The position numbers were made by a program, and so were the translations under genes. 64,000 nucleotides of DNA, taken from contig CAJTEX010000005.1 of assembly GCA_910575615.1 (NCBI GenBank), forward strand, positions 1-64,000, written 5' to 3'. Source of the DNA: Bacteroidales bacterium (lineage in GTDB: Bacteria > Bacteroidota > Bacteroidia > Bacteroidales > Muribaculaceae). This document shows, one piece after another, positions 18,806 to 39,680 of this stretch. Each line of letters begins with the position of its first letter. Position 1 is the stretch's first letter. The notes beneath the pieces are model-generated. The model searched no databases, had not been told where the DNA came from, and was given only the letters and a program-made list of their open reading frames with translations.

Positions 18806-19025
18806 TATTGCTGTCCGGTAAAAAAAGACAAAATCATATATTCTCTACAAATATAATAAGTTACACCTGTTTTACGAAAAAGGGCTTGTCATTTGAGGCG
18901 ATGTGAAATTGGTAGCATTAAGCATCAAAAAGCCCTTAAAAGACATCTATACGAGTCTGTTTCATGCTGTATGAGATAAAAATAGTCCATTTCCTATCAT
19001 GTCAAAGTTTTACCGGACAGCAATA
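18806..19025 (-). mobile_element. 220-bp miniature inverted-repeat transposable element, copy 1
   Basis: The ends are perfect 18-bp inverted repeats (TATTGCTGTCCGGTAAAA-like on the reference strand; the near end carries the same outer bases). The element is flanked by a perfect 9-bp direct repeat, ATTTCAGAC, at 18797-18805 and 19026-19034. Reverse-complemented, it is the same as the copy at 39436-39655 except for one base (19007). It has no coding capacity. An internal inverted repeat (AAGGGCTT/AAGCCCTT) may form a hairpin. On the minus strand it holds a TATATTTG box (18848-18855) pointing outward to dnaG. It lies between dnaG and the efflux operon, which diverge. Confidence 0.93.
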
Positions 19026-19112
19026 ATTTCAGACCACCAATTGCCCGCAAACGCCCCAAGGCAGCGGTGGCCCCACGTTTACAACTGTTCAACAACTGAT
19101 ATCCATATCACA

Positions 19113-20540
19113 ATGACAAACATCATCGAGAGGGTGACATTCACCACATTCGCGGCATTGATGCTGCTTATGTCAGTCGAGACGGTGCGTGGCGACGAGC
19201 CTCTGACCGCCGACAGCCTCCCCCGGGCCTGGACCTACGTCCCGGAGAAATACCAGGAGATTCCTGGGGGCGCCGATGACAGATGGTGGGGACGCTTCTC
19301 CGACCCGCTGCTTGACTCGCTCATCGTCCTTGGGGTGCAGCGCAACTATGACCTCCGCATCGCCCACCGGCGGCAGGAAATCGCCAGGGCGGCGATGAAC
19401 CAGGCCCGCGCCGCGTGGTATCCGACCATCAGCCTCTCGGCAGGCTGGAACGCCGCCAAGGAGTCGGGGGCCACAACCCGGGGAGCCACAACCGCCATGC
19501 CTGCCGAGTCTTATTTCACAGCCGGCCTGAATGCCAGCTGGGAAATCGACATCTTCGGCAAGGTGGCCGCCGGAGTAAAGGAGAAAAAGGCCGAATACAA
19601 CGCCAGCCGCGCTGAATACGCCGGATCGATGGTGTCGCTGACCGCCCAGATCGCATCGACATATTTCACCCTGCGCAGCCAGCAACGCCTGCTGCAGGTG
19701 GCCCAGGCCCACTGCAAGAGCCAGATGGAGATTGTCAAAATCGCCCGCGCACGTTTCGAGGCCACCCTCGCCTCGAAGCTCGATGTGGCCGAGGCATGGC
19801 AGACCTACTACTCCACGGCCGCTTCAATCCCTATGCTGGAAAGCTCGATACAGGCTTCAATAAACTCTCTGGGCATACTTGTCGGGGAATTCCCCCCGGA
19901 AGCGGCCAGGATGCTCGCCCAGCCCGGACCGCTCCCCAACTGGAAGACCGAAATCTCAGCCGGGGTGCCGGCCGACCTGCTCAGGCGACGTCCCGACATC
20001 GTGGAGGCCGAGATGGAGCTGGCGGCGGCGGCGGCCTCGGTCGGCATCGCCAAGAAAGATTTCCTCCCCACACTGACCATCGAAGGCTCAGTGACGACAG
20101 CCGCGCGGAAACCGGGCAACCTTTTCTCAGGCCACTCATTCACATGGTCGGTAGCCCCTACACTCTCCTGGACCCTCTTTGACGGCTTCTCGCGCAAATA
20201 CCAGCTCGTGTCGGCCCGCGAGCAGATGCAGTCAGCCATAGACAGCTACAACCTCTCGATACTCAACGCCGTCGGCGAGACCGAAAACGCACTGTCGACC
20301 TATGACGCCTCCCTGCGCCATATCGAGATTGTCGAAAAACTCTGTGTGCAGAACCAGGAGGCCCTCACTCTCGCCATAAAACGCTACAAAGACTCCCTGT
20401 CGCCCATGACCGACGTGGTCAACGCCCAGCTCAACGCCCTGGCAGGCGAAAGCGAGCTCGTGCAGGCCCAGGAGTCGGCCCTCACCTCCCTTGTCTCGCT
20501 GTATGAGGCCCTTGGCGGAGGCATATCCCTTGACGATTAA
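19113..20540 (+). CDS. Outer-membrane efflux factor (TolC/NodT family)
   Basis: The outer-membrane channel of a tripartite efflux pump. The 475-residue protein has a signal-like N-terminus (MTNIIERVTFTTFAALMLLMS) and two outer-membrane-efflux repeats of long helices, with family motifs RWWGRFSDPLLD near the N-terminus, SASWEIDIFG-like NASWEIDIFGKV, and LLRRRPDIVEAE before the second half. The ATG at 19113 is used: an in-frame start at 18999 lies inside the mobile element's end and would place a polar extension before the signal. No lipobox is obvious, unlike many NodT relatives. It leads the operon OMF-MFP-RND. Confidence 0.9.
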   Translation: MTNIIERVTFTTFAALMLLMSVETVRGDEPLTADSLPRAWTYVPEKYQEIPGGADDRWWGRFSDPLLDSLIVLGVQRNYDLRIAHRRQEIARAAMNQARAAWYPTISLSAGWNAAKESGATTRGATTAMPAESYFTAGLNASWEIDIFGKVAAGVKEKKAEYNASRAEYAGSMVSLTAQIASTYFTLRSQQRLLQVAQAHCKSQMEIVKIARARFEATLASKLDVAEAWQTYYSTAASIPMLESSIQASINSLGILVGEFPPEAARMLAQPGPLPNWKTEISAGVPADLLRRRPDIVEAEMELAAAAASVGIAKKDFLPTLTIEGSVTTAARKPGNLFSGHSFTWSVAPTLSWTLFDGFSRKYQLVSAREQMQSAIDSYNLSILNAVGETENALSTYDASLRHIEIVEKLCVQNQEALTLAIKRYKDSLSPMTDVVNAQLNALAGESELVQAQESALTSLVSLYEALGGGISLDD

Positions 20541-20585
20541 AATCCGCCCGATTTCATCATAACCCCCAACAATAAAGACATCACA

Positions 20586-21707
20586 ATGAAACGGAAACAT
20601 ATCATACTTACGGCTGCATGCGCCGCCATCGCGTTCTCAGGAGTTTTCCAGGGCTGCGGGAAAAAGCCCGCCGGGACAGAGGAAGAGGTGCCGCAGGTCT
20701 CGGTGGCCACCCCGATGACAGACTCTGTGGTTCTCCGCCAGTCATATCCAGCCACACTGTCGGCCACACAGTCGGCCGACGTGGTGGCCCGTGTCGACGG
20801 CCAGATTCTGCAGATTCTCTTCACCGAAGGGGACTTCGTCAAGGCCGGTCAGCCACTCTTCACCATCGAGTCGACAACCTATCGCGACGCGGTCAACCAG
20901 GCCCAGGCCGCCCTTGAGACCGCCATCGCCGAAAACGAATATGCCTTCAAGCAGTGTGAGGCCATGAAAAAGGCCCTTGAGGCCGATGCCGTGTCGAAGA
21001 TGGATGTCATCCAGGCCGAGAGCAACCTCCGCCAGAGCGAAGCCTCCATAAAGCAGGCGCGCGCCCAGCTTGAGACGGCCAAGACAAAGCTCGGCTACTG
21101 CACCGTCCGCGCTCCCTTCTCGGGGCTGATAACAGAGTCGATGTACAGCTCGGGCGCGTATGTCGGAGGGGAGGCCGCCCCTGTGACACTCGCCACCATA
21201 TACGCCAACAACACGATATACGCGATGTTCTCGGTCAGCACCGAGAGATACATGCAGGTGGCCGACACACGTGGCGGGAAGAACCTCGATCTCGACCATG
21301 TGCCGGTAATCGTGGGCGACACCACCTCCACCGTCACCTATGAGGGGAAACTCGACTACGCGTCGCCCGATGTCAGCAAGTCGACCGGCACAGTGACCCT
21401 CCGCCTCATCCTCGACAATCCGAAAGGCGAACTGCGCGACGGCATGTTCGCCACCGTCAAGCTCCCCTACGCCATCGATTCACGCGCCCTGCTTGTCAAA
21501 GACGCGTCGATCAGCACCGACCAGCTCGGCAAATACCTCTATGTCGTCAATGACTCCGACAAGATAATCTACACCCCCATCGAAGTCGGCGACCTCTATG
21601 ACGACACCCTCAGGATTGTCACCAAGGGGCTGCGTCCCGACGACCGCTACGTCACCACCGCCCTGCTCAAAGTGCGCGACGGAATGAAGGTGAAACCTAT
21701 AAAATAA
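20586..21707 (+). CDS. RND efflux periplasmic adaptor (membrane fusion protein), lipoprotein
   Basis: Joins the inner-membrane RND pump to the outer-membrane channel in the periplasm. 373 residues. The N-terminus [24 protein letters not shown] is a lipoprotein signal with the lipobox cysteine in VFQGC. Then come the lipoyl/biotinyl half-motifs ([24 protein letters not shown] and, after the hairpin, [13 protein letters not shown], named by their ends), a helical hairpin (about residues 100-165), the beta-barrel and the membrane-proximal domain ([12 protein letters not shown]). 45 bases after the channel gene and 13 before the pump gene. Confidence 0.95.
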
Positions 21708-21720
21708 ATCCGCCACGCCT

Positions 21721-24700
21721 ATGTTCTCAAGATTTTTCATCGACCGTCCGATATTCGCGACGGTGATGGCCATCATAATGATACTCGCCGGAGTCATCAC
21801 GGTCAAGACCCTCCCGATAGCCCAGTATCCCGACATCACCCCGCCCACAGTGATGGTGCGCGCCACCTATCCTGGTGCCGACGCCAAGACGGTGGCCGAG
21901 ACCGTCGGTGTCCCCATCGAGGAGAGCGTCAACGGAGTTGAGGGGATGATGTACATGAGCTCCAACTCAAGCTCAGACGGCTCTTACAGCCTGACCGTGA
22001 CATTCGAGAACGGCACCGACGTGGATGACGCGACCATCAAGGTGCAGAACCTCGTCAACCAGGCCGAAGCCCAGTTGCCGTCGGCAGTGACCCAGCAGGG
22101 GGTGGACGTGATGTCTGAATCGACAAGCATCCTGCTTTTCGTGGCGCTCCAGGGCGACGAGCGCTACGACGCGCTGTATCTCACCAACTATGCCCAGCTG
22201 CATATCGTCGACGCCCTCAGCCGCCTCGAGGGAGTAGGCGGTGTGAGCGCGTTTGGCGGTGGCGACTACTCGATGCGCGTGTGGCTCGACCCCGACGCCA
22301 TGATGTCGAGGGGGATAACCCCGGCCGATGTCATCGCGGCAATCGAGGCCCAGAACATGGAGGTGTCGGCAGGCTCGGTGGGCGCGCCGCCATCCTCCAC
22401 CCCGTCAGCATTCCAGTTCACCCTCTCATCACAGGGCAGGCTCACCACCGCCGACCAGTTTGGCGACATAATCCTGCGGAGCTGTCCCAACGGGGCACTG
22501 TTGCGCCTGCGCGATGTCGCCAAGGTTGAACTGGGCAGCGACTCCTACACCAGCATCAGCCGTGTGTCGGGAAAGCCCGCCGGACTGATCGGTGTCTACC
22601 AGCGTCCGCAGGCCAACGCCCTGGAGGTTGCCGGCGAGGTCGAGAAAGAGCTTGAGGCGCTTGCCCCCTATTTCCCCCCGGGAGTCCATTACCGCGTGTT
22701 GATGAACACCACCAACTTCATCTCCGCCTCGGTCGACGAGGTGCTGGTGACATTCGTCGAAACCACCCTCATCGTGATGGTCGTCATACTCTTCTTCCTC
22801 CAGAGCTGGCGCGCCGTCATCATCCCTATGCTGACAATCCCGGTATCGCTCATCGCCACATTCGCGGTCATGAAGCTGATGGGCTTCTCCCTCAACACCC
22901 TCACCCTCTTCGGCCTCGTGCTGGCAATCGCCATAGTCGTCGATGACGCGATAGTGGTGGTGGAGGACTGCGCGCGCCTGGTGCAGGAGGGGTCAATGAC
23001 GCCACGCGAGGCCGCGCGCAAGGCGATGGTCGAGCTGCAGGGCCCGGTGGTGGGCGAAGTGCTGGTGCTGCTGTCGGTGTTCATACCGACGGCATTCATC
23101 TCCGGCATCACCGGAGAGCTGTACAAGCAGTTTGCCCTCACCATCGCCGTCTCCACCGCCTTCTCGGGCTTCAACGCCCTGACCTTCACCCCCGCCATGT
23201 GTGCGCTCTTCCTGCGCAAGCAGAGCAAGTCGTCGGGTTTCATCCTTTTCAGATGGTGGAACACAGCCTGGGGAAAGACCGTCAGGTTCTACACCGACAT
23301 GATCGGCCGCCTGCTTAAACGCCCCTGGGTTGCCATAGGGATATACGCCATCCTCTGCGTGGCCGCTTTCTGGGGCTTCGCCAAATGGCCGTCGAGCTAC
23401 CTGCCTGAGGAGGACATGGGCTACTTCATGGCCTCTGTGCAGCTCCCCACCGAGGCCTCGCTCGAGCGCACCGACAAGATGGTGGCCCAGGTGTCAGACA
23501 TCATCCGCGAGATGCCCGAGGTGGAGGATGTCATCGAGATGTCGGGCTTCTCCTTCATGGCCGGAGGCTCGGGGAGCAACCTCGGCTCGATGTTCGTCAT
23601 GCTCAAACCCTGGAAAGACCGCAAAGGGAAATCCCACTCAGTGGAGGCCATCATAGACCGCATCGACGAGAGGTGTGCCTCGCTGCAGCAGGGCATAGTG
23701 TTCGCCGTCAATCCACCGGCCATCCCCGGCCTGGGCGCCACGTCGGGATTGTCGATGCAGCTGCTCGACATCAACTCGCGCGGGGCCTCCCAGATGGCCA
23801 AAGCGCTCGAAGACATAGAGGAGGCGGCCCGCAAGGATCCGCGCATAGGGTCGGTGCAGTCGCTTTACGAAGGGGAGGTGCCGCAATACAGTCTGGAGAT
23901 GCAGCGCGACAAAATCGAGATGCTCGGCCTTGACCTCGACGCCGTCTATTCGGCCCTGAGCAGCTATATCGGAGGATCGTATGTCAACGATTTCGTCAAG
24001 TTCGGGAATGTCTACCAGGTCAACATCGGGTCTACCGACAACGCCCGCGCCAATGTCAACGATGTGCTGAAACTGGCCGTCAGGAACTCCAGCGGCGACA
24101 TGGTGCCATTCTCGGTCTTCGCCACGATAAAACCGGTGATGGGCTCGGCATCAATCGGACGCTACAACATGTATGAGACCGCGTCGCTGACGGCCACCCC
24201 TGCCGACGGGGTAAGCTCGTCGGAAGGCATCAAGGCGATGGAGGAAATCGTGGAGAAAGCCACCGCCAACAGTTACGGGTACGCCTGGACAGGCGAGGCA
24301 TACCAGGAGAGCCGCGCCGGCACCACCGTGTCTGCCGTGCTGCTCTTCGCGGTGATAATCACCATCCTGGTGCTGGCCGCCCAGTATGAGAGCTGGACCG
24401 ACCCGCTGGCGGTGGTCATATCAATGCCAACGGCCATCCTTGGCACAGTGCTGGGCTGCCTATGCATGAGCCAGTCGATAAGCATCTACACCCAGATCGG
24501 CATCATATTGCTACTGGGTCTTTCGGCCAAGAACGCCATCCTTATAGTCGAGTACGCGATGGACTACCGAAAGCAGGGGATGTCGATACTCGAGGCGGCC
24601 TACAAGGGAGGCATGGTACGTTTCCGCCCGATCATGATGACCGCCCTGGCCTTTGTCTTCGGAGTGATGCCGATGCTGTTCGCCACAGGAGCCGGAGCGG

Positions 24701-24951
24701 CAAGCCGCATCAGCCTCGGCTCGGCAGTGGTCTTCGGCATGGCTGTCAACGCAATCATCGGCACACTGTTTGTCCCCAACTTCTGGGAGCTCTTCCAGAC
24801 TTTCCAGGAGAAATACCTGTCGAAGCTCTTCGCCTCGGCCGACAAGACGGCGGGCTCCAAGCCCGACAGCGCAGACTCCCCATCGGGGCCAACCGCCGCT
24901 TCGCAAGGAAGCACCGACTCATCTTCCCCTGACACAACCGGAGGGGTATGA
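21721..24951 (+). CDS. RND multidrug efflux transporter (HAE1/AcrB family)
   Basis: The proton-driven inner-membrane pump of the tripartite system. 1076 residues, the usual size. The N-terminus [20 protein letters not shown] is that of the family. Transmembrane helix 4 carries the proton-relay aspartates in [19 protein letters not shown], and helix 10 has the lysine in [17 protein letters not shown]. Two large periplasmic loops follow helices 1 and 7. The C-terminal 40 residues are a Ser/Pro/Thr-rich tail. Drug, bile-salt or lipid export is typical of HAE1 pumps; the substrate is unknown here. No regulator gene is adjacent. Confidence 0.96.
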
Positions 24952-24969
24952 GCCTCCGGCCACACAACA

Positions 24970-25016
24970 GAAAAACCATCCGGCAGGCCTTGACGGCCCC
25001 GACCGGATGGTTTTTC
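24970..25016. terminator. Bidirectional terminator between the efflux operon and the secreted-protein gene
   Basis: AAAAACCATCCGG (24971-24983) pairs with CCGGATGGTTTTT (25003-25015). The flanking A-run and T-run make it work for both converging units. Confidence 0.9.
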
Positions 25017-25052
25017 TTTAAAATCGCTTGTCTTACTGATTATTCGCGGACA

Positions 25053-27203
25053 TCAACGGGCGATGGCGACTTTCTCGACCTTGCTGCCCTGGCGGCGGAT
25101 ATAGAGACCGGGCTGGTCGGCGGCAACGCGCACGCCCTGGAGGTTGAAGTATTCCACAGGAGAATTCATATAATCGGCAGCCACACCCTCAACCGAGGAG
25201 ATGATGTTGCCTGAGGCATCGACATTCTTCACAAGTTCCTCGGAGTGCAGGTCGCCGAGTACAGACTTGGCGCGGATGGAGAGATAATTCCCTGCTGTCA
25301 CAGGCACATATATTTCATAGTTCTCACCCTCTTCGGCAACCTTGTTGGTCCATGCGGTGTCATCGGCGGCGGGAGCCTTGGCCAACACTGAAGCGGCCAC
25401 ATCCTCGCCATTCTCCTTGACAGCATTGCCGTCCTTGTCATATTCCACAGTCCAGACATGGAGCTCACCCTTGGTCGACATCAGTGACACCTTGGTAGCG
25501 TCATCCTCCATCAGGTCAAAGGCAGGCGCCTCGGGCTGAGGCTCAACCAGACGGTAAATCTGCACCGGCTTATAATCTTCGTCTTCAACCACAAAACAAT
25601 TGAATGAAAGACCTCCGCTTGCAGCCGACTTTCCATTGTAATAAATCTGACGAATGACTTCTGATTTCTTACAATTTACAAATTTGATTATCGCATTTGC
25701 GTTATCATCAAACTCAATCGACGAATTCCGACGATTCAGATTTGCTTCTTGAGGGTTATTTGCAAAAAGTCTGTTATTATTGGCTTCTGAATTAAGATAT
25801 ACCTGAGGGTTTGCAATATTGCCATTTGTCCCGAGATAATTCAGAGTCCGCCAAAGCCAAGTATCGCCATCCTTTTCCAAGGTCAGACGCAAAACTGTTT
25901 CTGAAGGATTGACAATCGAATTTTCCTGAATGGTAATTTCGGTAGATTTACGATTGTTTGTGTTATTTGTATTGGCCATAGCCAATTTGGCATCTTTCGC
26001 GGCGATGATATATTTTCCGCCGATGGCCAGCTCATCAACTGATTTCACAAGAGTCCAGACTTCATTTTCAGGAAGAACGGGTTCGGTGACAGTGAGGTAA
26101 AACTCACAAGTGCTTTCATTCGTGCCATCAGTGGCTGTCACAATGATACCATCCTGAGCAAACGCAAATTCAGGGGTCCAGGTAGCAGTGTTTGCCTCCT
26201 CATTAACAACCAACAAAGATTCCATAATCCTCTCGACAGTGATGTTGGTGGCATTCTCTGCAGCGAAAGTAAATGTGGTGCCGACTTCCACAGACACTTC
26301 ATCATTTTCGGCAACCTGGATTCCATCGCCGTAAGTCACAATGATGTCGCCGAGGACAGGCTGAGGAGCCTCAACCACCTCAAGCATAAAGGTGAATGTC
26401 TTTTCTTCCTCACCAAGCGTTGCAGTCACGGTCAGCTCTTCACCATCGGTCACAGTAGCAGCCCAGTCGGCTGTGGCGACACCCTGCGCAATGGTTGTGT
26501 TTTCGAAGTCTGTAACAACGATTGATTCCGCGTTTTCAGCAGAGAATGTGAAGACAGTACCCTCCATGACTCCTTCGAGAATATCACCATCAACAACGGG
26601 AGTCGCATCCTCACCGTAGGTGACGATGATGTCGCCTAAAACAGGTGTTACAACGGATTCTTCATATACAACTTCCAGTCCGGAGAATCCTATGTATTTA
26701 CCATCTGCGTTACCAGATAGAATCACCTGGATTTTTCCGGAGGCATTGCCCGTAAATACACAATCGGTTGAGGTAGAGGTAAGTGTTGCATTGGCAGCCC
26801 CATTGATTAAGAAAGCCTCTTCACCAACAACAACTGAGATTATGGCATTTCCATTTGATTTCGCGCCTTTCAACGTGACTTTTGAGATTGTGCCCACGAA
26901 ACTTTCGGTGGATAGAGTCATTGATTTCAGTCCGGCGCTTTTAGAACCGAGGGTCACTCCATTTTTTCCTCTTGAATAATATTTAGTCGTTTTCTGCCAT
27001 ACATAATCCAACGACCAGGTTGCCTTTAAACCTGAATTCATATCTGTCCATGTGGATGGTGCTTTTGTTGTCACACTACCACTACTGGGACTCAAAACAG
27101 CATCCCAGCCGGCAGCAGTCTCTGGCGCTGATGACCATATGGCTGCGGATGCAGTCATGACAGCCATAACGCCTGCGACCATAAAAAGTAGCAGTTTTTT
27201 CAT
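25053..27203 (-). CDS. Secreted multi-domain surface protein with repeated Ig-like units and a C-terminal tail motif
   Basis: 716 residues with a clear signal peptide (MKKLLLFMVAGVMAVMTASA). After an N-terminal beta domain, two related units start with VLGDIIVTYGEDA (about residue 190) and VLGDIIVTYGDGI (about residue 285), each followed by GT.FTFSAENA/FTFAAENA. A domain containing IIAAKDAKLAMAN follows. The end has EYFNLQGVRVAADQPGLYIRR and a basic finish, a tail often seen on secreted Bacteroidales proteins and thought to serve sorting or anchoring (inference). The middle (about 25580-26400) is visibly more AT-rich than both ends, which suggests domain exchange. The ligand or substrate is unknown. 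Confidence 0.8.
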   Translation of the reverse strand: MKKLLLFMVAGVMAVMTASAAIWSSAPETAAGWDAVLSPSSGSVTTKAPSTWTDMNSGLKATWSLDYVWQKTTKYYSRGKNGVTLGSKSAGLKSMTLSTESFVGTISKVTLKGAKSNGNAIISVVVGEEAFLINGAANATLTSTSTDCVFTGNASGKIQVILSGNADGKYIGFSGLEVVYEESVVTPVLGDIIVTYGEDATPVVDGDILEGVMEGTVFTFSAENAESIVVTDFENTTIAQGVATADWAATVTDGEELTVTATLGEEEKTFTFMLEVVEAPQPVLGDIIVTYGDGIQVAENDEVSVEVGTTFTFAAENATNITVERIMESLLVVNEEANTATWTPEFAFAQDGIIVTATDGTNESTCEFYLTVTEPVLPENEVWTLVKSVDELAIGGKYIIAAKDAKLAMANTNNTNNRKSTEITIQENSIVNPSETVLRLTLEKDGDTWLWRTLNYLGTNGNIANPQVYLNSEANNNRLFANNPQEANLNRRNSSIEFDDNANAIIKFVNCKKSEVIRQIYYNGKSAASGGLSFNCFVVEDEDYKPVQIYRLVEPQPEAPAFDLMEDDATKVSLMSTKGELHVWTVEYDKDGNAVKENGEDVAASVLAKAPAADDTAWTNKVAEEGENYEIYVPVTAGNYLSIRAKSVLGDLHSEELVKNVDASGNIISSVEGVAADYMNSPVEYFNLQGVRVAADQPGLYIRRQGSKVEKVAIAR

Positions 27204-27283
27204 AAGCCTTTTGATTTGAAAGTTTAGTATAATTGGTTAAAGATTGTTTTCTCCTCTGAGAAACCTGAAAAGTTTAGTTCTGA

Positions 27284-27291
27284 CAAAGATA
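27284..27291 (-). promoter_or_regulatory. -7 box for the secreted-protein gene
   Basis: TATCTTTG on the minus strand, about 80 bases before the ATG at 27203. The -33 region is weak. The rest of 27204-27470 is AT-rich and holds no gene. Confidence 0.5.
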
Positions 27292-27388
27292 GCGAAAATA
27301 CATCTGAATACCACACCGTATGGTGTTAAATTTTAGCGGCGTGGCGCTATCGGCACCTACTGAAAAATTATACAATCTTTTTAAACTT

Positions 27389-27417
27389 TTGACAAGGTTT
27401 TGCTATTATACTATAGA
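27389..27417 (+). promoter_or_regulatory. Sigma-70-like promoter motif before the 27471 gene
   Basis: TTGACA (27389-27394), 17 bases, TATAGA (27412-27417) fits the E. coli housekeeping consensus rather than the Bacteroidetes one. It lies 53 bases before the ATG at 27471, in AT-rich sequence where a chance match is possible. Confidence 0.35.
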
Positions 27418-27470
27418 CAGTGTCATCACATGTCTACCCTTAACCATATCATTATTTCAACTAAAGATTT

Positions 27471-27833
27471 ATGAAACTGAAAATTTCTTTGAAAACCGGC
27501 TCTCGGGATGAGGCCGTGAACCTCGGAAAGAAGATTCTCAAGGATGTGAAGAACGGCGAATGGCCCACATGGGGATTCCGTGAAATCGCTGCACCCAACA
27601 TGACATCCAAGCCGGTGATTTGCCACGATGTTTCATCGGGACAATACCTCGACGAGGGGAAAGATGTCTGTTTCGGCATCCACCTCGACGGCGCAGACCT
27701 GATTATAATTCCGGGCTTGCTGACCAACTGGTGTGCCACCCCCTCCCCCGACCAGCAACGGCTCCACATCGGGCGCCTCACCTCCCTGCTCCTCTCCTAT
27801 CGCCCCTATTTCCACTCTATGACGATCTCCTGA
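27471..27833 (+). CDS. Hypothetical protein, 120 residues
   Basis: I do not recognise a family. The ATG start gives a hydrophilic N-terminus (MKLKISLKTGSRDEAVNLGKKIL), no signal peptide, and a compact body with WPTWGFREIAAP, a His/Cys pair (ICHDV) and a hydrophobic strand DLIIIPGLLTNWCATPSPDQQ. Codon use in the body is like that of neighbouring genes. It stands alone between the divergent secreted-protein gene and the converging HepT remnant. A cytoplasmic enzyme-like domain is possible, but I see no catalytic signature. Confidence 0.6.
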   Translation: MKLKISLKTGSRDEAVNLGKKILKDVKNGEWPTWGFREIAAPNMTSKPVICHDVSSGQYLDEGKDVCFGIHLDGADLIIIPGLLTNWCATPSPDQQRLHIGRLTSLLLSYRPYFHSMTIS

Positions 27834-27859
27834 CGCCCCCCCTGAACAACCGCTTAAGC

Positions 27860-28526: not shown

Positions 28527-28543
28527 CGCTTTAAAGTTATCTG

Positions 28544-28573
28544 CAAAATTACAACAATTTACAGATTGTGCAA
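28544..28573 (-). promoter_or_regulatory. Promoter of mntA-hepT
   Basis: TTG (28571-28573), 19 bases, TAATTTTG (28544-28551) on the minus strand. The -7 box ends 17 bases before the mntA ATG. Confidence 0.7.
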
Positions 28574-28596
28574 GTTTCCTGGCATTTTTCCAGCAT

Positions 28597-29380: not shown

Positions 29381-29388
29381 CAAAGTTA
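29381..29388 (-). promoter_or_regulatory. -7 box for the solute-binding-like gene
   Basis: TAACTTTG on the minus strand ends 7 bases before the ATG at 29373, implying a leaderless or near-leaderless mRNA. Confidence 0.6.
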
Positions 29389-29424
29389 CAGAAAAGATTC
29401 CACAGAGTAAACAGATTGAGGAGG

Positions 29425-29741: not shown

Positions 29742-31877
<2,136 letters not shown>

Positions 31878-31886
31878 AGCTGGATG

Positions 31887-33788
31887 TTACTTTTTGAGAA
31901 GACGGCTGTTGAATTCCTGCAGGGTCTGAAGCACGTTGCTCTTGACGTTGATGAAGTTCTCGATGCCGAGGGCCTTGAGGTCGTCGGCGCATGCGGGCGC
32001 TCCGGCCACAACAAACTCGGCGCGGCCGTCGAGGACCTTGAACGCCTCGGGAGCGAAAGTGGCGTATTCATCGTCGGAGGAGCAGAGAACCACGATGTCG
32101 GCCTTGGCCTCGATGGCGGCGTCGACACCCTCCTGCACGCTGTTGAACCCGATGTTGTCAATGATCTCGTAACCGGCGCAGCCGAAGAAGTTTGACGAGA
32201 ACTGGGCGCGGGCGAGGCGCATGGCCAGGTTGCCGATGGTGAGCATGAACACCTTCGGACGGTTTGAGGCCGCTTCGGAGGCAAGACGCAGAAGCTCGAA
32301 GTCGCTCGCCATGCGGGCCTGGTTGAGGGCCTTTTCGGGATTGGTCTGGCAGTCGCCGCCGCATCCGCAGGCATGTGCCTGCTCCTGGCCTTTCACCTTG
32401 TCTACCTCGCAAGCCGCCGACGAACCGACCTCGATCTTGGCCTCGGCGAACTCGTTGAAGTTAGGGAACTGGTTGGTGCCGAGGAGGATTTCCTTGCGGC
32501 GGGCCATGCCGTCATGTCGTTTGGCTGCAGAGGCGTTGACGGCCTTCTGCACGTCGCCTTCGTTGACGCAAGCGAAGAATCCGCCTTTCTCTTCCACTTC
32601 GAGGAAGAGCTTCCATGCCTCCTTGGCGATGGAGACTGTGAGGGTCTCCACATAATATGAACCGCCTGCGGGGTCGGCCACCTTGTCGAGATGGCTCTCT
32701 TCCTTGAGCAGAAGCTGCTGGTTGCGGGCGATGCGCTCCGAGAATTCATCGGGAGTCTTGTAGGGGACGTCAAACGGGGTGACGGTCAGGGAGTCGACTC
32801 CGGCAAGGGCTGCCGACATCGCCTCTGTCTGGCTGCGCAGCAGGTTGACGTGGGCATCATAAAGGGTCTGGTTGAAACGCGAGGTGACGGCATGGAGGGC
32901 CATCTTGCAGTCCTCTTTCTCGATGGGCTTGTATTGCTCGGCGATCTGCGCCCAGAGCATGCGGGCGGCGCGGAACTTGGCAAGCTCCATGAAGTAGTTG
33001 GAGCTGACACCCATGTTGAACTTCACGCGCTCGGCGATGACAGCGGGTTTCACACCGGCCTCGGTCAGCAGGGTCATCCACTGCGCGCCCCAAGCCAGGG
33101 CGTAGCCGAGTTCCTGGAAGATATAGCAGCCGGCGTTGTTGAACACCACCGAGTTGACGGCCAGGCAGCGCAGACCGGGCACATCGGCCACGATGCCGAG
33201 CATTCCGGCGGCTTCGGCGGCGACAGCCTTGGCGTCGACATCGGCGCCATGGCGGAACGCGCGTTTGAGCGGGTCATAGTTGATCGAGCCATTGAACACC
33301 TTTTCGAGCTTGTGGGCCTTAAGCCATTCCACGAGGGCGGCGGCCAGGTCGAGGGCCTTGCGGGGGCAGGTGTTGAAATTCAGCTCCACCTCGGCGACAT
33401 TGATGTCTTTGAGGAGGATGTCAAGAGTCTCGATTGTAGGCTCCTTGATGGTGAAGCCCAGGGAGTTGACCCCTTTTCCGAGAACATCGAGGGCCACGCG
33501 GTTGGCCTCGGCGGGGTCTGCGGGGAGAATCTCCTGGCGGGTGAGCCAGTGGTTGTCGTCACGCGTACCCCTCACATAAGGGAACTCGCCCGGGAGGGAG
33601 CCGGTGGTTTTGAAATCGGCGATGTCCTCGCGGCGGTACATCGGCTGCACCGAGAAACCCTCATCGGTTCTCCACACCAGTTTCTTGTCGAAGGGGACAC
33701 CCTTGAGATCGGCATCAACCTTAGCCTTCCAGGTCTCGTAGGAGACGGGAGGGAACTGGGTGAACAGTTTTTCTTTATTTTCTGCCAT
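31887..33788 (-). CDS. mutA: Methylmalonyl-CoA mutase, small subunit
   Basis: Partner of MutB in the heterodimeric enzyme. 633 residues from ATG 33788 (MAENKEKLFTQF). The barrel fold resembles MutB, including GGSYYVETLTVSIAKEAW, but the C-terminal domain lacks the D-x-H-x-x-G cobalamin ligand, as expected for the non-catalytic subunit. A Cys-rich insertion HACGCGGDCQTNPEK (about residue 500) sits between barrel and B12-like domain and could bind metal (inference). The frame is open further upstream to 33878, but that part lies in the structured leader and is probably untranslated. Confidence 0.95.
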   Translation of the reverse strand: MAENKEKLFTQFPPVSYETWKAKVDADLKGVPFDKKLVWRTDEGFSVQPMYRREDIADFKTTGSLPGEFPYVRGTRDDNHWLTRQEILPADPAEANRVALDVLGKGVNSLGFTIKEPTIETLDILLKDINVAEVELNFNTCPRKALDLAAALVEWLKAHKLEKVFNGSINYDPLKRAFRHGADVDAKAVAAEAAGMLGIVADVPGLRCLAVNSVVFNNAGCYIFQELGYALAWGAQWMTLLTEAGVKPAVIAERVKFNMGVSSNYFMELAKFRAARMLWAQIAEQYKPIEKEDCKMALHAVTSRFNQTLYDAHVNLLRSQTEAMSAALAGVDSLTVTPFDVPYKTPDEFSERIARNQQLLLKEESHLDKVADPAGGSYYVETLTVSIAKEAWKLFLEVEEKGGFFACVNEGDVQKAVNASAAKRHDGMARRKEILLGTNQFPNFNEFAEAKIEVGSSAACEVDKVKGQEQAHACGCGGDCQTNPEKALNQARMASDFELLRLASEAASNRPKVFMLTIGNLAMRLARAQFSSNFFGCAGYEIIDNIGFNSVQEGVDAAIEAKADIVVLCSSDDEYATFAPEAFKVLDGRAEFVVAGAPACADDLKALGIENFINVKSNVLQTLQEFNSRLLKK

Positions 33789-33980
33789 GATATATAAAGA
33801 GGTTAACAATAGTTTGCATACATAGCTGCTTCCCGGGGATTTCCCGGGAAAACGGCGGTCATAGGTTTCAGAAAACACGGATTCTTCATGGTAACAGATT
33901 CCGAAAATATCTCCTCCCAGGCGGGGCGGTTATAACCCAAATCCGCCTGGGTGATATTAAAATTTCCAAAAACAGTTCAA
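33789..33980 (-). promoter_or_regulatory. Long structured 5' leader of mutAB (riboregulator candidate)
   Basis: About 190 bases lie between the promoter and mutA. Near the 5' end AATATC/GATATT (33906-33911 and 33953-33958) encloses CCCAGGC/GCCTGGG (33916-33922 and 33945-33951). Nearer the gene is an 8-bp stem TTCCCGGG/CCCGGGAA (33830-33837 and 33843-33850). The B12-box sequence GCCACTG of cobalamin riboswitches is not present on this strand, so it is not a standard cobalamin riboswitch. Confidence 0.5.
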
Positions 33981-33985
33981 TGCCA

Positions 33986-34015
33986 CAAATTTACTAAACT
34001 TTTTGGAATCATCAA
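33986..34015 (-). promoter_or_regulatory. Promoter of mutAB
   Basis: TTG (34013-34015), 19 bases, TAAATTTG (33986-33993) on the minus strand. The 110 bases between this and the hydrolase stop at 34128 show no other feature. Confidence 0.75.
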
Positions 34016-34127
34016 CAATTTGCAAGAAAAATTTCGGCGGCTCCACGAAAAACACCTCCACGTCTGACCCTCGCGGCCTGAACTCGCCACAAACCGCCCC
34101 TTTCGGCTGTCACCGTCCCCCGACCCG

Positions 34128-35147
34128 TCACTCCACGAACTCGGGCTGCCGGCCGAGCCATCTGAACATCGACTCGTAGACCGCACGGCGCACACGCGGA
34201 CGGGAAAGGACGAGGTCATGCAGACCGCTGTCGACAATCGCCTCGGTCACATTGTAGCCCATACGGCGTCCGCGGGCCGATATGGAGTCGACATTCAAGA
34301 CCGCGTCTCCGCTGCTGGCCAGCGGACTCCACCCGTCGGGATATACGCTGCGGCGCGAGCGCATCAGATAGACCGGCACCTTTATCGCCCTGCCGTTCTC
34401 GACCAGCTGCTTGTGGCCCCGGTCGATGGCGCGCACCCAGCCGAGGGAAATCGGGGCCGGATGGATGAGCTTTAGCGTGGTGTCAAACTCCCACTCGCCG
34501 TGGAGCGACTTCAGAAGGCTTTCACCATAGGCCGTGTCATCTCCTTGTGACATGTACACATCCGGCAGCCACTTCCCGGCAGCGGCGGCCAGGGGGATGA
34601 CAGCCTTGCGCATGAATCCCGTGAAATTCCAGTCGAGAAACGGACTGTTGAGAATCAGGGTCTTTATCTCTGGGGCGGGAGCGGATTCCATATACAACGA
34701 TGTGATGAGGCCGCCGGTGGAGTGGCCCATCAGCACGATGTCGGTCACGCTGTCGCGGCGCATGCGCGATATGGCCGAGTCTATGTCGGCGAAATACTCC
34801 GCCATGTCGCGCACCTCATACCGGTGCTGGCCGGGCAGGAGCGAACGCCCGTATTTGCGCAGATCGACGGCATAAAACCCATAGCCCGAATCATTGAACT
34901 CGCGCCCCATCGAGTCCTGGAAGAAATAGTCGTTGTAACCGTGGACATACAAGACCGCCTTGCGTGGCTTCTTCCCCTCGGGCAACCGCCTGATGACGGT
35001 CGACACCACTTTGCCGGAATAGTCGTCAGGCTGGTTCACTGTCTCGACCTCATAGCCAGATTTCCCCAGCAACGGGTCTGCCACCCAAGACAGCAGCAAG
35101 GGGGCGAGCAACAGAGAGAGGAGTATCAATACGGAGTCACGTCTCAT
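34128..35147 (-). CDS. Alpha/beta hydrolase, serine aminopeptidase/monoacylglycerol lipase-like
   Basis: A serine hydrolase, probably exported or membrane-anchored. 339 residues from ATG 35147 (MRRDSVLILLSLLLAPLLLSW), giving a hydrophobic N-terminal segment; the longer frame to 35303 crosses the promoter and is rejected. The fold shows the oxyanion strand AVLYVHGYNDYFF, the nucleophile elbow LMGHSTGGLI, an acid region around NVDSISARGRR and the catalytic His in DSGLHDLVLS. This pattern fits the Hydrolase_4 (S33/lysophospholipase) family. The gene diverges from the agmatine operon. The substrate is unknown. Confidence 0.87.
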   Translation of the reverse strand: MRRDSVLILLSLLLAPLLLSWVADPLLGKSGYEVETVNQPDDYSGKVVSTVIRRLPEGKKPRKAVLYVHGYNDYFFQDSMGREFNDSGYGFYAVDLRKYGRSLLPGQHRYEVRDMAEYFADIDSAISRMRRDSVTDIVLMGHSTGGLITSLYMESAPAPEIKTLILNSPFLDWNFTGFMRKAVIPLAAAAGKWLPDVYMSQGDDTAYGESLLKSLHGEWEFDTTLKLIHPAPISLGWVRAIDRGHKQLVENGRAIKVPVYLMRSRRSVYPDGWSPLASSGDAVLNVDSISARGRRMGYNVTEAIVDSGLHDLVLSRPRVRRAVYESMFRWLGRQPEFVE

Positions 35148-35197
35148 GTAGGCAATGTATTTCCACTTAAAACAATGAGGAGAGGCAGATTGGTTCG

Positions 35198-35228
35198 CAA
35201 AGTTAACAAATGTTTTTAAGTCGGCAAA
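35198..35228 (-). promoter_or_regulatory. Promoter of the alpha/beta hydrolase gene
   Basis: TTTG (35225-35228), 19 bases, TAACTTTG (35198-35205) on the minus strand. It lies within 30 bases of the plus-strand box at 35256, so the two promoters are back to back. Confidence 0.8.
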
Positions 35229-35255
35229 TTTTACGTTATTTTCCAAAAATTTCAT

Positions 35256-35263
35256 TATCTTTG
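35256..35263 (+). promoter_or_regulatory. -7 box of the agmatine operon
   Basis: TATCTTTG matches TAnnTTTG about 75 bases before the first gene (35338). The -33 region has no TTG. Confidence 0.55.
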
Positions 35264-35337
35264 CCGCATATAGCCAAATAAAACAATGCCACGGGGCACC
35301 CACTCCCTCCTTAGGCCCCGGTTAACCATGACAGACA

Positions 35338-35580
35338 ATGGATTTTCAAGACATCACAGAAGTGTTCCATCAAGTAATCCGCCAGGCCGGCAGCATCGAC
35401 ATGGCCGAGGCAGAGCTCAAAAAGATGGTGGGCGAGGATGATGAGCTCCACAAACTCTACCGCCAGTGGTGCCACGAGGTCGGAAGTTCTGAGCGGCGTG
35501 GTTTCCTTGACTTCTGTGAGGAGTATCTCGACAATCAGGAGTCTATATGGGACACCCTTGACAACGACTACGACCGATGA
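35338..35580 (+). CDS. Small conserved-looking acidic protein, 80 residues
   Basis: I do not recognise a named family. The sequence is helical and acidic, with a His/Trp/Cys cluster (LYRQWCHEVGSSERRG) and the ending FCEEYLDNQESIWDTLDNDYDR (given by its ends). No signal or membrane segment. The ATG at 35338 is preceded by the operon promoter, and the stop overlaps the aguA ATG (ATGA), so translation is coupled. A small cytosolic accessory factor is likely, but no function can be assigned. Confidence 0.7.
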   Translation: MDFQDITEVFHQVIRQAGSIDMAEAELKKMVGEDDELHKLYRQWCHEVGSSERRGFLDFCEEYLDNQESIWDTLDNDYDR

Positions 35581-36641
35581 CCACCGCCACTCCACCTGTC
35601 CCTGGCAGGATAATGCCAGCCGAATGGGACTCAAGATTCGACGCCACCCTCATAGCGTGGCCACACCACGACACCGACTGGGCTGACATGCTCGACGATG
35701 TCGACCGATGCTACACCGACCTGACCCAGGCCCTGCTCCGCGCCGGGCAAAAGGTTGTCATCGCCACACCCGAGCCTGAGCGGGTCAAGGCGTTGCTGGC
35801 CGACGACATGGCCACAGGCCACCTGCTCGTAGCCCGTTGCCCCACCAACGACACCTGGACTCGCGACTACGGCCCTCTCACCGTCGAAGACACAACCGAC
35901 GGCAGCCTCTCGGCTGTCGCATACAAGTTCAACGGCTGGGGCCTCAAGTTCCCGTCTGACAAAGACAACCTCGCCTTCCTGTCTCTCGTGGCCGACAAGG
36001 CCCTGCGCGCACCGGTGGCCCTGCGCAAGCGGTATGTGCTTGAGGGGGGCTCCATCGAGAGCGACGGCGACGGCACCATCCTGACCACATCGGAGTGCAT
36101 GCTGTCGGTCAACCGCAACGGGTTCATCACCAAGGAGGAGGTCGAGCGCGAGCTCGCCGCCGGCCTGGGCGCTACCCGCGTGCTGTGGCTCGACCATGGC
36201 GCGTTGAAAGGGGACGACACCGACAGCCATGTCGACACCCTCGCCAGGCTCGCGCCTGGCGACACCATATTATATGTGAAGTCATACACCCCGACCGACA
36301 GCCATACCCCCGCGCTCGAACGCATGGAGGAGCAGCTCAAAGAGTTCCGCACACCAGACGGCAATCCCTACAACCTGATAGGGCTGCCGCTCCCCTCCCC
36401 CATCCACGACGACAATGGCGACCGCCTGCCGGCGACATACGCCAACTTCCTCATCACCCCCCGGGCGGTGGTGATGCCGGTCTATGGCCAGCCCCGCAAC
36501 GACGATATGGCGGCCCATATGCTGTCAATCGCTTTCCCCGGCCACGAAATCATCACGGTGGACTGCCGCGCGCTGATACGCCAGCACGGCTCGCTGCATT
36601 GCGCGACAATGCAGATTCCCGCCTCCTGGCTCCCGATATGA
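35577..36641 (+). CDS. aguA: Agmatine deiminase
   Basis: Hydrolyses agmatine to N-carbamoylputrescine and ammonia, the first step of this putrescine route. 354 residues of the PAD_porph fold. Visible are MPAEWD near the N-terminus (substrate-site Trp), the NDTWTRDYGP motif, VLEGGSIESDGDG, and LDHGALKGDDTDSHVDTLAR (His/Asp of the active site), with the catalytic Cys in the end motif SLHCATMQIP. It overlaps the small gene before it and aguB after it by 4 bases each, so the three are one tightly coupled unit. Confidence 0.95.
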   Translation: MTTATPPVPGRIMPAEWDSRFDATLIAWPHHDTDWADMLDDVDRCYTDLTQALLRAGQKVVIATPEPERVKALLADDMATGHLLVARCPTNDTWTRDYGPLTVEDTTDGSLSAVAYKFNGWGLKFPSDKDNLAFLSLVADKALRAPVALRKRYVLEGGSIESDGDGTILTTSECMLSVNRNGFITKEEVERELAAGLGATRVLWLDHGALKGDDTDSHVDTLARLAPGDTILYVKSYTPTDSHTPALERMEEQLKEFRTPDGNPYNLIGLPLPSPIHDDNGDRLPATYANFLITPRAVVMPVYGQPRNDDMAAHMLSIAFPGHEIITVDCRALIRQHGSLHCATMQIPASWLPI

Positions 36642-37549
36642 AAACCCAAACACCGACCGATATGCCCGACAAAATAAAGGTGGCCCTCATACAGCAGGGC
36701 AAGACCGCCGACATAGCCGACAACCGCGACCGCCTGGCCCGTGAAATCATCAAGGCCGCAGGCGAAGGCGCGAATCTGATTGTCAACCAGGAGCTGCACG
36801 ACTCGCTGTATTTCTGCCAGGACGAGAATGTTGACACATTCGACCTCGCGGCAGACCTCGCCGGGGAAGCCACGGCCATGTATGCCCGGCTGGCCAAGGA
36901 ACTGGGTGTGGTGATTGTCACCTCTATGTTTGAACGCCGAGCCGCCGGACTGTATCACAACACAGCCGTGGTCTTCGACTCAGACGGCAGCGAGGCGGGT
37001 CGCTACCGCAAGACCCATATCCCCGACGACCCTGGATTCTACGAGAAATTCTATTTCACTCCCGGCGACCTCGGCATCAAGCCCATCCAGACCTCACTTG
37101 GCAAGCTCGGGGTACTGGTATGCTGGGACCAGTGGTATCCCGAGGCCGCACGCCTCATGGCCCTCCAGGGGGCGGAACTGCTGATTTACCCAACGGCCAT
37201 AGGCTGGCAGGACACAGACCCGCAGGATGAGAAACAACGCCAGCGCGAGGCATGGATAACCGTGCAGCGCGGCCACGCCGTGGCCAACGGCATACCTGTG
37301 ATAGCCGTCAACCGCGTCGGCCATGAGGATGACCCCTCGGGGGTGACCGACGGAATCACATTCTGGGGCTCGAGCTTCGTGGCAGGCCCCCAGGGGGAAT
37401 TCCTCTACCAGGCCCCCGACGACAGCGAGGCGACGGCCATAGTCGATGTCGACCTCAGGCGCAGCGAGAATGTGAGACGCTGGTGGCCTTTCCTGCGCGA
37501 CCGCCGCATCGACATATATGACGGCTTGACAAAACGCTATCTCGACTGA
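36638..37549 (+). CDS. aguB: N-carbamoylputrescine amidohydrolase
   Basis: Converts N-carbamoylputrescine to putrescine, CO2 and ammonia. 303 residues of the nitrilase superfamily with the Glu-Lys-Cys triad: E52 in VNQELHDS, K125 in RYRKTHIPDD and C162 in VLVCWDQWYPEAAR. The ATG at 36638 overlaps the aguA stop; a long open extension upstream runs through aguA in another frame and is an artefact. With AguA it forms the complete agmatine-to-putrescine pathway; an arginine decarboxylase is not in this window. Confidence 0.96.
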   Translation: MKTQTPTDMPDKIKVALIQQGKTADIADNRDRLAREIIKAAGEGANLIVNQELHDSLYFCQDENVDTFDLAADLAGEATAMYARLAKELGVVIVTSMFERRAAGLYHNTAVVFDSDGSEAGRYRKTHIPDDPGFYEKFYFTPGDLGIKPIQTSLGKLGVLVCWDQWYPEAARLMALQGAELLIYPTAIGWQDTDPQDEKQRQREAWITVQRGHAVANGIPVIAVNRVGHEDDPSGVTDGITFWGSSFVAGPQGEFLYQAPDDSEATAIVDVDLRRSENVRRWWPFLRDRRIDIYDGLTKRYLD

Positions 37550-37571
37550 CACATTCTTCCTACCCCCTGAT

Positions 37572-39164
37572 ATGGAAATCCTCCTCCCGCCCGACTTGTC
37601 AGGCAAACGCAGCCCGTTGCCTCCGGCATCACGCAGCCTGACCATCATCGGCGCGAACGGCGCCGGCAAGACCCGTTTTTCCCTGTACATGGCCGAGGGA
37701 CTGGGCGAAAAGGCATTCAGGCTCTCAGCCCTGAAAGCCATATACGCCACCGGCGAGCCTAAAGAGGAGCCAGGCACCGTGGACGGAATTTATGTCAAGG
37801 CCCGCCAGTCGCCCTCATTCCTGACCAACACCGCCTCGACGACTTTCGACAGGCTCACAGCCCTGCTGCTAAACGAGGAGATAGCCTCGCTGGTCGAATA
37901 CAAGATGGCCCAGACTAAAGTGGCGGCCGGCCGACGCGACGCGGCCATAGCCCCTACGACCAAGCTCGACGAGGTGATAGCCCGGTGGCAGGAGATTTTC
38001 CCCTCAAACCAGGTGCTGCGCCAGGGAGGCCGCCTGCTCTTCGCCCGCGACGGGCAGGATGACAGATACTCTCAGGTCCGCCTCTCCGACGGCGAGAAAG
38101 CCGTGCTGTATTACTTCGGGGCATTGCTCTACGCTCCGCGCAACGCCGTGGTGTTTGTCGACTCCCCCGAGATGTTCCTACACCCCTCGCTCCAGCAAAA
38201 GACATGGGACTCACTGGAGGCCATGCGGCCCGACTGCCGGTTTGTCTACACCACCCATGACCTCGACTTCACAGCCACCCGCCAGCGCGACCTGCTGCTG
38301 TGGGTGCGCGGCTACGACACCGCCGGGGAGGGCTGGGACTACACCATCCTGCCGCGTGGCGCGGGCATATCCGACGAGGTCTATATGGCCATCATCGGCT
38401 CACGCAACCCGGTGCTGTTCATCGAGGGCGACGCGTCCCACTCCATCGACGCCAAGCTTTATCCGCTTGTGTTCAAAGACTTCACGGTGAAATCCCTTGG
38501 CAGCTGCGACAAAGTAATCGAGTCGACACGCGCCTTCAACGACCAGCGCTCCCTCCATCATCTCGAGAGCCGTGGCATAGTAGACCGCGACCGCCGCGAC
38601 GAGGGGGAGGTGGCATACCTGCGAAGCAAAAACATATTCGTGCCGGAAGTGGCGGAAATCGAGAACATACTGATGCTGGAGGAGGTGGTCAGGACCGTGG
38701 CCGCGTTCAACGGCCGCGACGAAGACAAAGTCTTCCGGTCGGTAAAGAAATCAATCATGTCCATGTTCAGCCACGACCTGCGCGCCCAGGCGATGCTCCA
38801 CACACGCCATCGAACCAAAAGGCTGATGGAGCGTCGCGTCGACGGCAAGTTCAACAACATAAACGCCTTTGAGCAGCACCTGGCGGGACTGGCCGGCGAA
38901 CTGAATCCGCGCGGAGTCTACGAGCAACTGTGCCGCGAGTTCTCCCGGCTTTTAGCCGAAGAAAATTATGCCGGAATCCTCAAAGTCTACAACCAGAAGT
39001 CAATGCTTCCCGGCTCCAATGTATCCCAGCTCTGCGGGCTAAACGGCTCGAAAGACTCTTACGTCGGCTGCATCATATCGATACTGCGGCGCGACACTCC
39101 TGCTTCACGCCGTATCCGACGCGCCATCACAGCCTGCTTCGGACTTGACCCTGACAATGATTGA
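37572..39164 (+). CDS. OLD-like AAA ATPase with TOPRIM/DUF4435-type C-terminal domain
   Basis: 530 residues. The N-terminal half is an ABC/SMC-type ATPase with Walker A GANGAGKT (27-34), signature LSDGEKA (171-177), Walker B VVFVDSPE (193-200) and H-loop VYTTHD (225-230). The C-terminal half has a TOPRIM-like arrangement: FIEGD (283-287), IVDRD (336-340) and a further acidic site AEIENIL (361-367). OLD-family and related ATPases with this layout are nucleases, several of them in phage defence. No partner nuclease or helicase gene is adjacent; it follows aguB by 22 bases in the same operon. Role unproven. Confidence 0.8.
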   Translation: MEILLPPDLSGKRSPLPPASRSLTIIGANGAGKTRFSLYMAEGLGEKAFRLSALKAIYATGEPKEEPGTVDGIYVKARQSPSFLTNTASTTFDRLTALLLNEEIASLVEYKMAQTKVAAGRRDAAIAPTTKLDEVIARWQEIFPSNQVLRQGGRLLFARDGQDDRYSQVRLSDGEKAVLYYFGALLYAPRNAVVFVDSPEMFLHPSLQQKTWDSLEAMRPDCRFVYTTHDLDFTATRQRDLLLWVRGYDTAGEGWDYTILPRGAGISDEVYMAIIGSRNPVLFIEGDASHSIDAKLYPLVFKDFTVKSLGSCDKVIESTRAFNDQRSLHHLESRGIVDRDRRDEGEVAYLRSKNIFVPEVAEIENILMLEEVVRTVAAFNGRDEDKVFRSVKKSIMSMFSHDLRAQAMLHTRHRTKRLMERRVDGKFNNINAFEQHLAGLAGELNPRGVYEQLCREFSRLLAEENYAGILKVYNQKSMLPGSNVSQLCGLNGSKDSYVGCIISILRRDTPASRRIRRAITACFGLDPDND

Positions 39165-39212
39165 AAAAAGGCTGCAGAGCGGGGGGCGCTTGTCGGCGTC
39201 CCCGCTCTGCAG
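39164..39212 (-). terminator. Intrinsic terminator on the minus strand
   Basis: On the minus strand CTGCAGAGCGGGG pairs with CCCCGCTCTGCAG (plus coordinates 39200-39212 and 39172-39184), followed by CC and a run of T (39164-39169). The T-run exists only in this direction, so it serves the broken gene at 39257-39680, not the ATPase gene. Confidence 0.75.
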
Positions 39213-39256
39213 TTGTATGTAGTATTAGTGTATGATGTCGTTGACGGGCGGCAGAC

Positions 39257-39680
39257 TCACAGACGCGCGACCGAATCCCTGACAATCCAAGCCACCACCA
39301 TTGCCGGCTGCGACAGCCCCACGGCCACCACAGTCTCGGCCTTGACGACAGGCTCGCAGCTTTCAGCACACAACAACGCGTCACCATGGCTGTCGCAGAA
39401 TGATGCAGCCGCTGCAATGATTGACATAAGACATATATTGCTGTCCGGTAAAATTTTGACATGATAGGAAATGGACTATTTTTATCTCATACAGCATGAA
39501 ACAGACTCGTATAGATGTCTTTTAAGGGCTTTTTGATGCTTAATGCTACCAATTTCACATCGCCTCAAATGACAAGCCCTTTTTCGTAAAACAGGTGTAA
39601 CTTATTATATTTGTAGAGAATATATGATTTTGTCTTTTTTTACCGGACAGCAATATAAGACATATGGAAATTCTAAACAT
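39257..39680 (-). pseudogene. Small exported-protein gene interrupted by the 220-bp element
   Basis: If the element (39436-39655) and one copy of the 9-bp duplication are removed, an ATG at 39678-39680 joins in frame with the region before it and reads through to TGA at 39257-39259: 64 residues. The start (MFRISICLMSIIAAAASFC) has a signal-peptide shape, with three Cys residues shortly after it. A minus-strand terminator lies 44 bases downstream. With the element in place the frame is broken (229 extra bases). An ATG at 39427 could still start a shortened 56-residue product. I do not recognise the family. Confidence 0.55.
39436..39655 (+). mobile_element. 220-bp miniature inverted-repeat transposable element, copy 2
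   Basis: Starts with TATTGCTGTCCGGTAAAA and ends with its exact reverse complement. It is flanked by the perfect 9-bp direct repeat TAAGACATA (39427-39435 and 39656-39664). It differs from copy 1 (18806-19025, opposite orientation) at a single base (39454). A TATATTTG box (39606-39613) with a weak TTCG 19 bases upstream points outward across the right end. It carries no gene, so it must be moved by a transposase encoded elsewhere. It sits in the 5' part of the small gene described at 39257-39680. Confidence 0.94.

Follow-up and report, generated by a model that had tools for sequence, protein, structure and literature searches.

A new 220-bp MITE family in a Muribaculaceae genome: recent amplification, horizontal spread among Bacteroidales and probable movement by an IS4-family DUF4372 transposase

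A 220-bp sequence present in two copies in the window (the whole 64,000-nt stretch of Muribaculaceae DNA analysed here) is a MITE of a new family. We propose that it is moved in trans by an IS4-family transposase with a DUF4372 and a DDE domain, that it was recently amplified and that it has spread horizontally. The probability of this reading is about 0.86 in our estimate, since among the Muribaculaceae an insertion sequence (IS) fragment combining an exact end of the element with a transposase was seen in one genome only, G374. The copy number, the near identity of the copies, their ends and target duplications, the empty sites and the IS with the same ends in a relative were observed directly.

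The earlier note on this DNA had described two copies of one 220-bp element in opposite orientation and one base apart, with 18-bp inverted ends, perfect 9-bp flanking repeats and no gene, and our analysis agrees with it in each of these points (Table 1). The single difference between copies A and B is at element position 202 (G/A), and the sequence TATTGCTGTCCGGTAAAA forms both ends of both copies as perfect 18-bp inverted repeats. When 200,000 intervals of 220 bp were drawn at random from the window as a control, 12 of them had a 9-bp repeat at the edges. With 74 G+C among its 220 bases, the element also differs from the window, which has a G+C content of 57%. Mechanically called ORFs of at least 80 aa only cross the edges of the element, and no coding gene lies within it.

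Table 1. Coordinates of the element, its ends, duplications and candidate promoter (window positions), and of further mini-elements in other Bacteroidales (positions in the fetched stretches).
Feature	Position	Strand	Remark
MITE copy A	18806..19025	+	220 bp, no coding gene
MITE copy B	39436..39655	-	220 bp, orientation opposite to copy A, one base different
Copy A, left 18-bp terminal inverted repeat	18806..18823	+	
Copy A, right 18-bp terminal inverted repeat	19008..19025	-	
Copy A, 9-bp target duplication ATTTCAGAC, left	18797..18805	n/a	Region single in G011 empty site
Copy A, 9-bp target duplication ATTTCAGAC, right	19026..19034	n/a	
Copy B, 9-bp target duplication TAAGACATA	39427..39435	n/a	Letters of the + strand
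Copy B, 9-bp target duplication TAAGACATA, other side	39656..39664	n/a	G011 empty site 229 bp shorter
Candidate outward promoter, copy A	18848..18879	-	TTTC-N20-TATATTTG, exits left end; predicted
Same promoter-like site, copy B	39582..39613	+	Placed by position from copy A
Further mini-elements	L121 3290-3402; L130 237-364; L179 6088-6341; L164 6071-6369		

The genome to which the window belongs is available as a draft of 3.13 Mb in 89 contigs (99.75% complete). A BLAST search of this genome with the 220 bp yielded 40 matches, of which 29 are full-length and identical to copy A, nine more are full-length or one base short with 99-100% identity, and two are partial. The distinct full copies thus number 38, compared to the two noticed originally. 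The genome search proposed in the earlier note therefore shows repetition of the 220-bp body as well as of its 18-bp end. Additional copies are broken, either at the end of a contig or by another insertion (C7:1, the end of C14, the end of C17, the interrupted copy at C19:1, and C29:1), and some of the pieces at contig ends may be the two halves of one copy. Full, interrupted and truncated copies together occupy about 43-45 sites. That several contigs end inside MITE copies explains part of the fragmentation of the assembly. Two copies have a common base change at position 61 and two at position 158, which fits with new copies arising from existing ones. A further exact 18-bp end, at C6:141447-141464 and 161 bp before a MITE, adjoins a subterminal sequence unlike that of the MITE and is perhaps the end of another element.

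The flanks of 42 distinct full copies were inspected for duplications (38 in the window's genome, two in the congener G001 and one each in Duncaniella muris and G148). A perfect 9-bp duplication is present at 40 of the 42 copies in the four genomes, and at 36 of the 38 in the window's genome; one of the two remaining copies has an 8-bp repeat in a run of A, and the other has none. No two of the 40 perfect 9-mers are alike, and together they contain 84% A+T. Since they all differ, the flanking 9-mers are not part of the element, a possibility which the earlier note had raised against its own reading. In Bacteroides acidifaciens, 9-bp duplications could be read from the flanks of all four full copies.

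Sites without the element exist in congeners for both copies of the window. At the first site (copy A), both flanks match the congener G011, which has 39 bp where the window has 271 bp, a difference of 232 bp; the genomes G005 and G009 are each 243 bp shorter at this site and lack the element, with more diverged flanks. At the second site (copy B), G011 has 91 bp as compared to 320 bp here, and the difference of 229 bp corresponds to 220 + 9. In alignments with the joined flanks, the region of the 9-mer is single in G011 at each of the two sites. The near identity of the copies, their inverted ends, the distinct 9-bp duplications, the empty sites and the lack of a gene together identify the element as a MITE. 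Its recent movement, which the earlier note had claimed, is borne out by the near identity, the intact duplications and the empty sites.

Among 397 Muribaculaceae genomes, 17 have some match to the element at E <= 0.001, and four contain full-length copies: the window's genome, its congener G001, D. muris (G099) and G148. The 220 bp are identical in the three other genomes, D. muris included. The flanks of the D. muris copy are the same as those in NZ_PUEC01000009.1. In G132, a 48-bp piece lies at a contig end. A search of 393 order-level genomes at E <= 1e-8 returned the window's genome only. Outside the family, B. acidifaciens DSM 15896 harbours four full copies and three pieces at contig ends, and the full copies have one change in common, at position 21. 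D. muris and B. acidifaciens are mouse-gut species. The identity of 219-220 of 220 bp across two Bacteroidales families implies that the element moved horizontally between them in recent time; because a second family contains it almost unchanged, it can be used to mark very recent DNA exchange among Bacteroidales.

Elsewhere, the copies lie in surroundings other than those of the sites described here. Stretches of 84-97% identity are found near some copies (L085/L016, L137/L007 and L316/L076), and no carrier island common to the genomes was seen in the fetched flanks. The element gave no phage match, and a 29-base core of it had no exact counterpart in IMG/VR, while the plasmid search gave one match, a diverged relative. 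This relative, on the Phocaeicola massiliensis plasmid OY725999.1, is 76.8% identical to the element over query positions 2-220 and has an 8-bp edge repeat. A 254-bp MITE of Prevotella sp. RGIG4603, whose left 79 bp are 79% identical to the element, has a 9-bp duplication, and its left end has nine matches in that genome. Both relatives differ from the 220-bp element in that their internal sequence is diverged or unrelated, and the plasmid record is unannotated. Apart from these, the 18-bp ends enclose another MITE, 233 bp in length, in Prevotella ihumii (L123 6130-6362 and L139 2635-2867); the common 22-bp end has 18 matches in its genome, not all of which are verified MITEs. Other Bacteroidales also contain mini-elements of 113-299 bp that have 9-bp duplications and whose ends are identical or almost identical to these (Table 1).

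The earlier note had proposed that the transposase is supplied in trans and that an IS with the same ends should be sought. When the exact 18-bp end was scanned in one genome per species, at least 115 stretches were obtained. Judged by their titles, those among the matches listed come from Bacteroidales or unplaced relatives, save a single stretch each from Halieaceae and Xenorhabdus that we take as chance matches. Also among the matches listed, four stretches (L116, L138, L146 and L159) have two ends 1436-1443 bp apart together with a long gene. A gene of this type is also contained in L145 (1090 bp) and in L161 (1998 bp), the latter with an inner IS of 1420 bp whose ends are three bases off. 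The best example is L138 from an uncultured Prevotellaceae, a 1443-bp IS with the exact 18-bp end on both sides and a 9-bp duplication, so that an IS with the same ends does exist in another Bacteroidales genome. Its transposase has an N-terminal DUF4372 (PF14294) followed by DDE_Tnp_1 (PF01609), and belongs to the IS4 family according to the NCBIfam model NF033592 (180 bits, cut-off 115). L159 (1436 bp) has a 9-bp duplication and one end that is one base off, L146 lacks a duplication, and L116 stops at a contig end.

For each exact end in these at least 115 stretches, the longest inward ORF of at least 60 aa was collected, resulting in 46 ORFs. The DUF4372 transposase is the only group among them that recurs between loci, with 11 ORFs at 10 loci, all similar to the protein of L138; Pfam was run on three of the 10 loci (L116, L138 and L161). 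Most exact ends lie near contig ends, and this view of the genes beside them is therefore a partial one in which other transposases could be unseen.

The draft genome of the window with its 89 contigs yielded no IS bounded by the exact 18-bp end. Its resident DUF4372 ISs have similar ends: in C15 the right end is one base off (a left end was not found), in C52 an end is two bases off, and in C5, C7, C11 and C18 the ends are three bases off, while a more distant IS in C21 has ends that are five bases off. The intact IS in C5 (C5:118973-120396) has no perfect duplication; 9-bp duplications flank the DUF4372 IS in C7 and a near-identical IS in G001. The C5-type protein is about 99% identical in G001 and G148, both of which carry the MITE, and D. 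muris contains fragments with the end of a C5-type IS. We also examined 19 loci from other Muribaculaceae, all of them fetched for short matches to the element, and obtained transposase matches in two, both from G374. In one of them the exact end is followed by a transposase which is 94% identical to that of L138 over 256 residues and is cut by the contig end; in the other the match covers 28 residues. Others among the 19, including one from the congener G007, have the exact end and an IS-like subterminal sequence with no transposase in view, and three (L232, L233 and L234) gave no transposase match in about 1.5 kb inward of the exact end. The only DUF4372-type transposases seen in B. acidifaciens are distant ones of 30-31% identity that each contain a stop; in the Prevotella MAG G399, with nine related matches, no such protein was found at E <= 1e-20. 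Thus, movement in trans as proposed in the earlier note gains from the exact-end IS4-family ISs in relatives and stands as the probable mode of action, while the expected exact-end IS was not encountered in the genome itself. This helper may have been lost, may be hidden in assembly gaps, or may have been replaced by a related enzyme tolerating changed ends.

The body of the MITE has about 22 bp at its right end in common with the ISs examined, and beyond this no match. We therefore rejected its origin by internal deletion of an IS; a parent IS of the 220 bp was not found in the 397 Muribaculaceae genomes, in the 393 order-level genomes (best two candidates per genome) or in the exact-end stretches.

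Based on these observations, the following course of events can be envisaged. An IS of about 1.44 kb whose 18-bp ends equal or closely resemble those of the MITE would provide the transposase in trans, and this IS4-family protein with its DUF4372 and DDE domains would bind the ends of the MITE and move it. A cut staggered by 9 bp in an AT-rich target would give rise to the 9-bp duplications. The element would then have been amplified recently to its present number of sites, and some carrier would have brought it from species to species within the Bacteroidales.

Gene conversion alone could yield near identity, and the copies could then be old and held identical without recent movement. We consider this very unlikely, since the 9-bp duplications are intact in 36 of 38 copies, the sites are empty in congeners, and the identical sequence is present in other genera at flanks not coinciding with the sites here. 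Even less credible is that the 220 bp represent a conserved structured RNA or a functional, REP-like intergenic repeat and not a transposon, which the earlier note had named as the finding that would speak against it. The internal arms AAGGGCTT and AAGCCCTT are able to form a hairpin. However, Rfam gave no match at E <= 1 for window positions 18700-19130, and the RNA folds of four 150-nt pieces remained within the range of shuffled sequences (z of -0.19 to -1.62); the full-length DNA fold with paired ends is the only one that stands out (z of -6.0). Moreover, the full-length body is present in only two of the 14 genomes of the genus that were searched, the window's own included, the orthologous sites are empty in congeners, and each insertion carries its own duplication. 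A structured RNA was thus rejected.

An alternative for the source of the transposase is an IS701/IS4-like IS with the ends CAATGATTCGGTAAAA and a 408-aa protein, which is nested in two copies and could, together with the MITE, make up an autonomous element. At C7, such an IS inside a MITE forms a unit of about 1.6 kb in its own 9-bp duplication, and a second compound appears to lie with one part at the end of C6 and the other at the end of C19. Further, the ends of the MITE and of this IS have the core CGGTAAAA in common. However, this IS is bounded by ends of its own, and what looks like a 6-bp duplication flanks it (TTATTA in the MITE, TTATTG in C15). It is also found without MITE ends at other places in the genome, one of them being window positions 1-1369 at the start of contig C5, where its transposase gene spans 106-1332. 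The two compounds contain it in opposite orientations, which is what independent insertions into a MITE would produce, and a comparison of its protein with the 46 exact-end ORFs gave only two matches of 31 residues, both to DUF4372 proteins. With its own ends, its 6-bp duplication and no relative beside exact ends, it was rejected as the main mobiliser, and we regard this alternative as improbable and retain the DUF4372 transposase as the enzyme that presumably moves the MITE. We read the IS701-like IS as a separate element that struck the MITE twice. The two insertions are at the identical base (L061 1253-2621; L062 1481-1587; L067 1662-1778), which reflects either a hot spot or a strong target preference. 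The ends of C6 (L062) and C19 (L067) hold complementary halves of the compound with the same flanking 9-mer ATTCCATAT, and these contigs therefore probably join there. In the genome, 14 matches to the IS701-like transposase were counted, mainly fragments at the ends of contigs; the score of this protein with the model NF049999 is below the cut-off.

We searched the literature by name, by subject and with the end strings, and found no description of the 220-bp sequence or its end; none of the publications containing the end strings is about a transposon, as judged by the title and the beginning of the abstract. The MITE features applied here are given in a work on the Porphyromonas gingivalis MITEs MITE239, MITE464/PgRS, MITE700 and BrickBuilt (PMC4596501). 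As described there, these elements resemble ours in being non-autonomous, in residing in Bacteroidales and in having ends that match or nearly match those of resident ISs, whereas the ISs are of the IS5 family (ISPg1, 3, 4 and 9) and the end sequences are different. The main text of a review on prokaryotic MITEs (PMC10969869) contains neither IS4 nor words starting with Bacteroid, and a Prevotella repeat is stated in PMC4755523 to be distinct from a MITE. With bacterial MITEs that have a presumed IS4-family, DUF4372-type partner, the 220-bp element has in common that it is short and AT-rich, lacks a transposase gene, is present in many copies, and has perfect inverted ends common to an IS as well as 9-bp duplications. 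It differs from them in that the exact-end partner was not found in the same genome and that its body is not a recognisable remnant of an IS. The element is thus an instance of a clean and recent MITE burst in the Muribaculaceae, for which the class of the presumed partner transposase can be named.

Certain BrickBuilt elements were reported to have promoter activity (PMC4596501). The minus strand of our element contains the promoter-like site TTTC-N20-TATATTTG, which points out of the left end. At the same place, the diverged relatives from Phocaeicola and Prevotella have TTTG-N19-TGTATTTG and TTTG-N20-TGTATTTG. The sites resemble the consensus of Bacteroidota promoters, TTTG / TAnnTTTG, from which each of the three deviates at one position, and the three elements contain further sites of this kind. 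Since these elements are related, the recurrence of the site is not independent, and simple shuffling of the three sequences, 500 times each, produced an equally good site in 90, 79 and 83 cases. Neighbouring genes agreed with the direction of the site at 15 of 21 co-directional sites, an orientation bias which is not significant (p 0.08, with a crude ORF caller). Thus, an outward promoter is possible, the support from the sequence being weak. If it works, each insertion would be a natural experiment in gene regulation. It is tempting to go further and to regard the MITE as a mobile regulatory module that combines an outward promoter with an outward start frame, is moved by any related DUF4372 transposase, spreads between families and rewires genes at about 40 sites; given the outcome of the shuffle control, we consider this rather doubtful.

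The start frame in question is an ATG frame at the right end of the MITE (MSKFYRTAI, window positions 18999-19025), which exits the element. At the site of copy A it is in frame with the adjoining ORF of 513 residues; at L061 1081-1107, the ORF in frame with it comprises 369 residues or more and leaves the fetched stretch. The outward frame is also kept in the Phocaeicola relative, in the form MLKFYRTAI.
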